NCBI GenBank assembly: GCA_900546775.1
Contig: UREM01000032.1
Location: forward strand, 1 to 21,809
DNA length: 21,809 bases
Direction of reading: 5' to 3'
DNA from: an uncultured Collinsella sp.
Lineage (GTDB): Bacteria; Actinomycetota; Coriobacteriia; Coriobacteriales; Coriobacteriaceae
Positions 5,859 through 6,377 of the stretch are shown here, piece by piece. A model generated the notes under the pieces. The model was not told the DNA's origin and made no database searches. It saw only the letters and a list, made by a program, of their open reading frames with translations. The translations under genes and the position numbers were made by a program. Positions within the stretch are counted from its first letter, which is position 1; the number at the start of each line of letters is the position of its first letter.

Positions 5859-5973
5859 GATGAGGTCCTTTGATTCTCGGGTTTGAACAATGCCCGTACA
5901 TAGTACATGGTTGGCGGCGATTGAGACCCTATTGCTCGGCAAACGGTAGGGACTGGGAACGGTCATGGGTACC

Positions 5974-6038
5974 AAACATGTACATCAGCCTCCAAAGATG
6001 CCGAAAAATGTCGTTTTTGGAGGGTGATGTACATGTTT
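5974..6038. repeat. Long inverted repeat, 23-nt arms
   Basis: Arms 5974-5996 and 6016-6038 match at 22 of 23 positions, beginning AAACATGTACATCA and closing TGATGTACATGTTT. The spacer is 19 nt. No T run follows on either side, so terminator function is unlikely. It lies 115 nt upstream of the TRIC gene start and just before the tRNA-Ser-like block. It could be a palindromic mobile element, an operator or a cruciform; no open frame is inside. Confidence 0.8.
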
Positions 6039-6065
6039 GAGATTCAAGGTGAAATCGAAAGCAAT

Positions 6066-6222
6066 GGGGGACGTGGCTGAATAGGAGGGATGTCCAAATT
6101 TTGAGCAGCGCTCAAAATTTATCCGGTCGGCTTACGCCGACCGCGCTGCGCTAAAAACGCGCCACTGGCGCGTTTTCTTTACGCTTTGCGCCCTGGCGGG
6201 TTCGAATCCCTCCTCCTCCGCC
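6066..6222 (+). other. tRNA-Ser-like 5' and 3' parts separated by three perfect hairpins
   Basis: The 3' part (6198-6222) repeats 25 nt exactly from the 3' end of tRNA-Ser(CGA), in inverted orientation to that gene: T loop TTCGAAT, 3' acceptor strand, discriminator G and CC, but then G instead of the A of CCA. At the 5' side GGGGGA (6066-6071) can pair with TCCTCC of that end, and GTGGCTGAATAGG resembles a D arm. Between them are three hairpins: AAATTTTGAGC/GCTCAAAATTT (6096-6120), CGGTCGGC/GCCGACCG (6124-6143) and AAAACGCGCC/GGCGCGTTTT (6154-6176, followed by CTTT, terminator-like). In an alternative fold, AGGAGGGAT (6083-6091) pairs with ATCCCTCCT (6206-6214) and encloses all three. No anticodon arm is visible. 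It may be a disrupted tRNA pseudogene, a palindromic insertion or a structured RNA. Confidence 0.6.
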
Positions 6223-6248
6223 GTATTTGCTTGTAAGGGACTCTAAAC

Positions 6249-6275
6249 AAAAAAGCCCCCGTTTTCGGGAGCTTT
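6249..6275 (-). terminator. Terminator of tRNA-Ser(CGA)
   Basis: On the minus strand AAAGCTCCCG pairs with CGGGGGCTTT (one mismatch) around AAAA, followed by TTTG. It lies 12 nt past the encoded CCA of the tRNA gene. Confidence 0.85.
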
Positions 6276-6286
6276 CTCAACCAAAA

Positions 6287-6377
6287 TGGCGGAGGAGGAG
6301 GGATTCGAACCCTCGTGACCTTATACAGGCCAAACGGTTTTCGAGACCGCCGCATTCAACCACTCTGCCACCCCTCC
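6287..6377 (-). tRNA. tRNA-Ser (CGA)
   Basis: A class II tRNA. The acceptor stem GGAGGGG pairs with CTCCTCC, the anticodon loop CTCGAAA carries anticodon CGA for codon UCG, there is a long variable arm (GGCCTGTATAAGGTC region), the T arm is GAGGG-TTCGAAT-CCCTC, the discriminator is G, and CCA is encoded at 6289-6287. It is downstream of tRNA-Ser(GGA) on the same strand, separated by a hairpin. No separate promoter is evident, so some read-through from the GGA gene is likely. Confidence 0.97.

Follow-up and report, generated by a model that had tools for sequence, protein, structure and literature searches.

The window, meaning here the whole 21,809-nt stretch of Collinsella DNA that was analysed, carries a tRNA-Ser(CGA) gene on its minus strand (positions 6287 to 6377; ARAGORN and Rfam RF00005). 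Beside it lies a 157-nt stretch (6066 to 6222) that resembles the tRNA at both ends and is filled with hairpins in between. Is this stretch a tRNA gene broken by an insertion, an RNA that mimics a tRNA, or an element that inserts next to tRNA genes? The 157 nt are one unit of an RtT-like, T-arm-linked repeat family, and not a broken tRNA.

Organisation of the unit beside tRNA-Ser(CGA)

Read along the tRNA strand, the gene (6377-6287) is followed first by a 64-nt trailer. The 3' end of the gene then recurs twice, inverted at 6222-6198 and in direct orientation at 6091-6074, and the hairpin core (6197-6092) lies between these two copies. The trailer (6223 to 6286, minus strand) contains a terminator-like hairpin and in relatives is often found within the repeated unit. 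The inverted copy comprises T-arm and acceptor strand and is the reverse complement of the tRNA-Ser(CGA) 3' end over 25 of 25 nt, as the initial annotation had reported, with a T-loop identical to that of the tRNA; it is contained in a longer inverted pair (I1; 30 nt, 93%). The core (6092 to 6197, minus strand) is supported by a covariance model, folding and covariation. The model, R1, contains the T-arm and was built from 12 members of the family including the window, where its match in the core spans 6141-6210 and scores 73 bits.

The core contains a conserved stem (6143 to 6191, minus strand; outer arms 6143-6152 and 6181-6191), in which compensatory changes were found in the 51-unit alignment described below, and which encloses a perfect 10-bp hairpin with a loop of 3 nt (6154-6163/6167-6176). 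The second stem, CGGTCGGC/GCCGACCG, is a perfect 8-bp hairpin with a 4-nt loop (6124-6131/6136-6143) and the third, AAATTTTGAGC/GCTCAAAATTT, a perfect 11-bp hairpin with a 3-nt loop (6096-6106/6110-6120); both vary among family members. The three perfect stems of 11, 8 and 10 bp first noticed by inspection were all found, together with the enclosing 9-bp stem that had been proposed (6083-6091/6206-6214), which lies inside another inverted pair, I5. The fold had also been suspected to exceed chance, and none of 200 shuffles was as stable: its energy is -73 kcal/mol, whereas the shuffles average -54.6 (z -4.95).

The worn direct copy (6074 to 6091, minus strand) runs from about T-loop position 59 to the CCA and is identical to the tRNA (6287-6304) at 15 of 18 positions (family D2), or at 14 of 17 in the 55-unit comparison below. 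The trailer of this unit is not copied (11 of 40 nt matching). The initial annotation had read the plus strand as a tRNA and taken this part for its 5' half; the part is better explained as the direct copy seen on the opposite strand, a repeat of the tRNA 3' end that has degenerated. The absence of an anticodon arm was corroborated, since neither ARAGORN nor Rfam RF00005 called a tRNA at 6066-6222 and no cloverleaf with an anticodon arm, as a tRNA gene or pseudogene would have, was found there. Because both tRNA-like flanks are inverted and direct copies of the 3' end of the neighbouring gene, two options raised by the initial annotation, a tRNA pseudogene with a palindromic insertion and a tRNA-mimic RNA, are not supported.

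A separate palindrome adjoins the element at 5973-6039 (24-nt arms, 96% complementary, 19 nt apart), and several tRNA-Ser(CGA) loci, some with the element and some without, have similar sequence downstream of the gene.

Distribution of the repeat family

Near full-length homologues of the window unit were present at the same tRNA-Ser(CGA) gene in 11 of 43 Collinsella genomes, so that the locus is not unique to one strain. A shorter match adjoins tRNA-Ser(TGA) in one of these 43 genomes, and among the fetched loci weaker matches adjoin Gln, Val, Arg, Gly and Leu tRNA genes. When the tRNA-Ser(CGA) locus was compared by eye in the window and 29 of the 43 genomes (n = 30), the window core type was seen in 12, another core type in seven, an inverted arm only in two and no element in nine. 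At one such locus (L025, genome G028) the second and third stems seem, by eye, to be parted by about 100 extra bp, as if by a further insertion.

R1 matched 42 of the 43 genus genomes at an E-value of 0.1, with 6-20 matches in 37 of them, and 40 of 43 at 0.01, together with 55 of 65 genomes of the family, covering all six genera. A search of the class at 1e-4 gave matches in 45 of 197 genomes, 35 of them in the family and 10 outside it by score alone; the best match outside the family was in genome G138 (1.3e-10). At 1e-5, 12 of 396 phylum genomes were matched, all within the same family. A pattern scan returned 68 stretches, mostly from Collinsella. A pattern hit in a Sulfolobales contig (L200) was rejected as a false positive, being a tRNA-Ser gene itself (28 bits with R1, 25 bits with the full-unit model R2). 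An R1 score under about 30 bits may accordingly reflect a tRNA gene, which makes the genome tallies at lax E-values upper bounds.

The repeat lies behind genes with a T-arm

Loci were chosen by similarity to the element and not by proximity to a tRNA gene; R1 however includes the T-arm. Searching 58 loci gave 85 R1 matches, of which seven (17-24 bits) were left out and two at 23.8 bits kept, so that the set comprises 78 matches from 55 loci. Seventy of the 78 share a locus with an ARAGORN tRNA, across 11 isotypes, and every one of them is 3' of that tRNA and antisense to it. The first unit lies 52-78 nt behind the tRNA 3' end, and further copies follow one unit farther. The check that had been suggested, recurrence of the hairpin block beside other tRNA genes, thus gave a positive result.

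The eight remaining matches fall into three groups. Four lie behind tmRNA genes in three genus genomes (L086 twice, L098 and L113); the first inverted T-arm there matches the tmRNA over 14 nt, the gap is 60-63 nt and the direct copy is short. Three belong to a contig-terminal array (L032) with copies of a tRNA 3' end, and one adjoins a truncated tRNA-Lys(CTT) gene (L081). With matches behind tmRNA as well as tRNA genes, the target is a gene with a T-arm and not a tRNA as such. The truncated gene (about 571-760 of L081, genome G001) has lost its 5' part and received no ARAGORN call, and its 3' end and the repeat unit are kept.

The flanks match the neighbouring gene

A unit consists of an inverted T-arm copy, a hairpin core and, recognisably in 52 of 55 units, a second, direct copy of the gene's 3' end; units of the latter sort measure 175-213 nt and their cores 83-104 nt. 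To compare flank and neighbour, the inverted 7-nt T-loop was read in 55 units representing 11 isotypes and 18 tRNA species, and the same loops were randomly re-paired 20,000 times. With the arm located by the tRNA's own sequence, a procedure that favours a match, the T-loop was that of the unit's own neighbour in 50 of 55 units; the shuffled mean was 22.0 and the maximum 32, and none of the 20,000 shuffles reached 50. When the arm was located by the end of the R1 match alone, 44 of 55 still matched (shuffled mean 20.6, maximum 31, 0 of 20,000 reaching it), and seven of the 11 misses had a match end shifted by one or two bases.

Minority T-loops were matched as well when the arm was located by the tRNA: TTCAAGT in 3/3, TTCGAAC in 2/2, TTCGACC and TTCGAGC in 1/1 each, TTCGAGT in 6/7 and TTCGATT in 5/6 units. 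The tRNA-Lys(CTT) gene differs in its loop between two genomes (TTCGAAT and TTCGACC), and in both the element has the loop of its own neighbour.

The direct copy starts in the T-loop, at position 57-59. It agrees with its own tRNA at a mean of 16.1 of 17 nt, compared with 10.3 for other tRNAs; 45 of 55 units reach 16-17 of 17 and 52 reach at least 12, while in three (L012, L023 and L089; 9-10 of 17) the copy was not recognised. Copying extends to the trailer in 30 of 55 units, where 31-40 of its first 40 nt match. The flanks match the neighbouring gene at 18 tRNA species, and for the inverted arm also at tmRNA. Whatever produces the repeat is constrained by this rule, that the flank copies the T-arm of its neighbour.

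Compensatory changes maintain the best-conserved stem

Alignment A4 comprised 51 of the 55 units; three without a recognisable direct copy and one identical sequence were omitted. For 17 pairs, chosen on that alignment, 89.9% of cells were paired, a figure that dropped to 32-55% when the structures were slid by 1-3 columns. Changes on both sides of a pair were seen in 83 cells compared with 24.7 after shuffling, and in 10 pairs compared with 7.2. Further pair types numbered 26, which is not significantly different from the 23.7 of shuffled data. The best-conserved stem is thus kept by compensatory changes in relatives, as the initial annotation had anticipated for a functional RNA.

RNAalifold recovered only eight pairs from the alignment, probably because the outer stems vary in length, and the structure was therefore given by hand and counted. 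The second and third stems vary freely. When each was scored as the longest perfect hairpin, the second exceeded mononucleotide shuffles at 0.05 in 16 of the 51 units and the third in 28. Folds of whole units from eight relatives had z of -2 or lower in six, and the other two were no better than shuffles (L033, z -0.31; L042, z -0.93).

These changes, and the recurrence of the same plan at many T-arm genes, bear on the proposal that the stretch is a decayed tRNA pseudogene with chance hairpins. All that speaks for it is a superficial likeness of both flanks to tRNA-Ser; the family evidence and the missing tRNA call refute it, leaving it a negligible probability.

Compensatory changes also count towards the main rival to a mobile element, an RNA function. 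According to this explanation the repeat would be an RtT-type by-product of tRNA transcripts that is under selection, its flanks would aid pairing or processing, and it would have spread by duplication and gene conversion and not selfishly. On the tRNA-sense strand, G-U outnumbers A-C at paired positions (42 cells compared with 14), as expected if the RNA matters, although a single column, which divides according to core type, accounts for 17 of the 42; this excess points towards RNA without deciding the matter. An annotated ncRNA, rttR, sits at the same kind of unit in E. coli, and the portion of PMC4986893 available to us describes RtT RNAs as released from tRNA transcripts. Judged by eye in the units inspected, however, a terminator-like hairpin commonly stands between tRNA and unit, so that transcription of the tRNA strand would need read-through, and the lack of an element at nine of the 30 tRNA-Ser(CGA) loci, likewise scored by eye, argues against an essential role there. 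On balance we regard a selected RNA as a possible but rather doubtful explanation of the family.

Core types do not follow tRNA species

In the fetched loci, to which the comparison of cores applies, core type does not follow tRNA species. For all seven comparable cores of genome G042 and all nine of G014, the closer match was a core at a different tRNA within the genome, not the one at the same tRNA in another fetched genome; the core at tRNA-Arg(ACG) in G042, for example, scored 0.94 against another tRNA of its genome and 0.73 against the same tRNA in another genome. Six of eight G042 cores were closest within the genome, one tied and one was closer to another genome. In G014, however, an even nearer core was found in another genome for nine of 10 cores, in most cases at a different tRNA, and the traffic may thus be old or have taken place between genomes. 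Orthology dominates in G001, for which the set includes a near relative, G002: two of 11 rows favoured the same genome and one tied. Gene conversion between old copies could also be a source of this mixing.

Filled sites, empty sites and arrays

At tRNA-Leu(CAG), a filled locus (genome G024, L213) and an empty one (G008, L229) differ by exactly one unit of 189 bp. Removing the 189 bp from L213 yields L229 with 18 mismatches and no indel over 330 bp. The unit consists of 125 bp of new sequence and a 64-bp duplication (58 bp exact), which spans T-loop position 59 to 46 nt behind the CCA. This pair could have been produced by insertion or by clean loss through recombination between the repeats. 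Filled and empty loci were also found for tRNA-Gly(TCC), where the first trailer copy has diverged. At tRNA-Val in genome G025, three units follow one another at a spacing of 187 bp, and arrays such as this agree with recombination between repeats.

A candidate mechanism

From these comparisons of sequence, the unit is probably an RtT-like T-arm repeat whose core is a small non-autonomous element. This core would be copied to genes bearing a T-arm; its insertion would duplicate everything between the T-loop and a point shortly behind the terminator, corresponding to the 64 bp at tRNA-Leu(CAG), and would also copy the T-arm of the target in inverted form. With the tRNA 3' end and the terminator carried by the unit, the host gene would stay intact. 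Homologous recombination between the duplicated ends may then multiply the 175-213-nt units into arrays or remove them cleanly. The hairpins might be needed in RNA of the tRNA-sense strand, as for E. coli rtT, or in a folded single DNA strand during copying. The suggestion that the stretch is a new mobile palindrome targeting tRNA genes came close in this respect, given its recurrence at tRNA genes; its movement, though, is something we infer, and because the E. coli tyrT/rtT repeats share the plan, the element is not entirely new in kind.

The matched flanks could also arise without a dedicated enzyme. The T-arm is a near-palindrome, and template switching at it during replication or repair would yield in one step the inverted T-arm, the copy of 3' end and trailer, and a flank that matches each new host. 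Template switching alone leaves unexplained why 37 of 43 genus genomes hold 6-20 matches while most genomes outside the family hold few or none, and we consider it an unlikely source of the repeat.

Where an element has integrated into a tRNA gene, a direct copy of the 3' end is typically present; tandem arrays of like units also occur here. The repeat might by this token be a remnant or miniature of an integrative element, a tyrosine integrase having crossed over in the T-loop and the direct copy being one half of an attachment site. The trailer copied along in 30 of 55 units does not fit such an origin, nor does the use of one kind of core at 11 isotypes with a matched flank each time. In addition, neither of two exact core patterns occurred in viral contigs, and phage records contained nothing that matched the window unit. 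An origin of this type therefore appears improbable, more so than template switching. A phage or plasmid origin was itself set aside, there being no match in viral contigs or phage records and a single plasmid record, from Subdoligranulum, with its unit beside tRNA-Arg.

A further candidate for the mover is a RAYT (Y1) transposase acting on a REP/BIME-type palindrome. PF01797 matches were found in 37 of 43 genus genomes; in the parts of the sources at hand, rtT-like elements are linked to BIMEs in enterobacteria (PMC2965389) and a REP survey lists rttR as REP-containing (PMC12306157). Against this, no R1 match occurred in 22 Y1-gene loci (57 kb; 16 stretches and six more). Four of the 16 stretches were searched for repeats, two having palindromes of other sequence and two none of note. 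Genomes G015, G017 and G025 contain four, 15 and six element matches, respectively, at an E-value of 0.1 and no PF01797 match at 1e-5. Dependence being judged by presence and absence, RAYT is unlikely as the mover, and a REP/BIME-type palindrome is a very improbable reading of the family. At L129 and L130, Y1 (PF01797) genes are flanked by palindromes of their own (GTTGGGGACGTG... and CGACAAGATGG...CTTGTCG) that resemble REP/RAYT sets of the genus.

Comparison with known systems

Genomic islands at tRNA 3' ends use these ends as att sites of tyrosine recombinases. Like the Collinsella repeat they have a direct tRNA 3'-end copy that starts in the T-loop, and tandem arrays. The Collinsella unit differs in its size, 175-213 nt with no room for an integrase gene, and in having an inverted T-arm copy inside and often a copied trailer too. 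REP/BIME sequences with RAYT (TnpA-REP) are likewise short hairpins that occur between genes in many copies and carry no gene themselves, whereas the Collinsella repeat is locked to T-arm genes and takes its flanks from the host gene. In the open-licence literature, screened by titles and abstract openings, no T-arm-linked repeat class was described.

Units with the same parts were found in Clostridia: L191, a metagenome-assembled genome (MAG), beside tRNA-Arg(ACG); L146, a Clostridiales MAG whose locus has no ARAGORN tRNA call; and L212, from Subdoligranulum variabile, where the unit adjoins tRNA-Arg(ACG) and the trailer is copied. They score 36-44 bits with R1 and 46-58 bits with R2. A truncated unit without a direct copy was seen in L144.

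The closest parallel in plan is the tyrV locus of E. coli K-12 (tyrT repeats/rtT/RttR, RF00391). The tyrT repeats have been known since the 1970s to carry about 19 bp of the tRNA end. Behind the tRNA-Tyr gene of this locus lie three tandem units of 178 bp with a spacer of 59 nt, and the last part of each repeats the tRNA 3' end exactly, T-loop through CCA; these three copies correspond to the direct copies at 16-17 of 17 nt in 45 of 55 Collinsella units. An inverted piece of the tRNA 3' end, GGGGAAGGAT opposite ATCCTTCCCC, closes a GC-rich hairpin core, as the inverted arm does in Collinsella with exact T-loops in 50 of 55 units (44 of 55 by R1 alone). The E. coli rtT core sequence was also present on 28 records filed as plasmids, from Escherichia, Klebsiella, Salmonella and Providencia, some of them megabase-sized and probably chromosomes.

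RF00391 scores the E. coli rtT units at 134-137 bits. Its cut-off of 45 bits was reached in none of 42 genus genomes, where the best match (24.4 bits) sits on a unit beside tRNA-Ser(TGA) in genome G030 and the sole other match (L044, 19.7 bits) is not near a tRNA. In the reverse direction, R1 found nothing significant at the E. coli rtT locus. With R2, the three rtT units were the top-ranking matches of the locus; they lie on the tRNA strand and score 14-16 bits (E 0.005-0.011 in 1.7 kb), which is below the 25 bits of the plain tRNA gene L200. The rtT and Collinsella repeats share one plan, and the model scores suggest homology from both sides, but weakly; formal membership of RF00391 fails.

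A bolder and distinctly tentative proposal is that these repeats, E. coli rtT included, belong to an unrecognised class of mobile elements in at least two phyla, which would recognise the T-arms of tRNA and tmRNA, duplicate the stretch from the T-loop to past the terminator and rewrite one flank as the inverted T-arm of the new host. If so, one core could colonise genes of differing sequence. If the repeat is mobile at all, the ends of tRNA genes harbour very small elements of a class for which annotation has no name. The natural filled and empty sites allow an RNA gene to be tested against a selfish element.

RtT RNA is linked to amino-acid limitation and the stringent response in the part of PMC4986893 available, which also reports RtT-family RNAs beside tRNA-Asn and tRNA-Lys in Actinobacillus pleuropneumoniae, with expression detected by RT-PCR. 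By the description given there, these RNAs lie at tRNA genes as in Collinsella, but upstream (PMC4986893). The E. coli tyrT repeats have long been a curiosity with a proposed link to amino-acid limitation. Compared here at one tRNA locus, their plan now extends to gut Actinomycetota and Clostridia, and to 11 tRNA isotypes; in Collinsella the repeat occurs at 18 tRNA species and at tmRNA.
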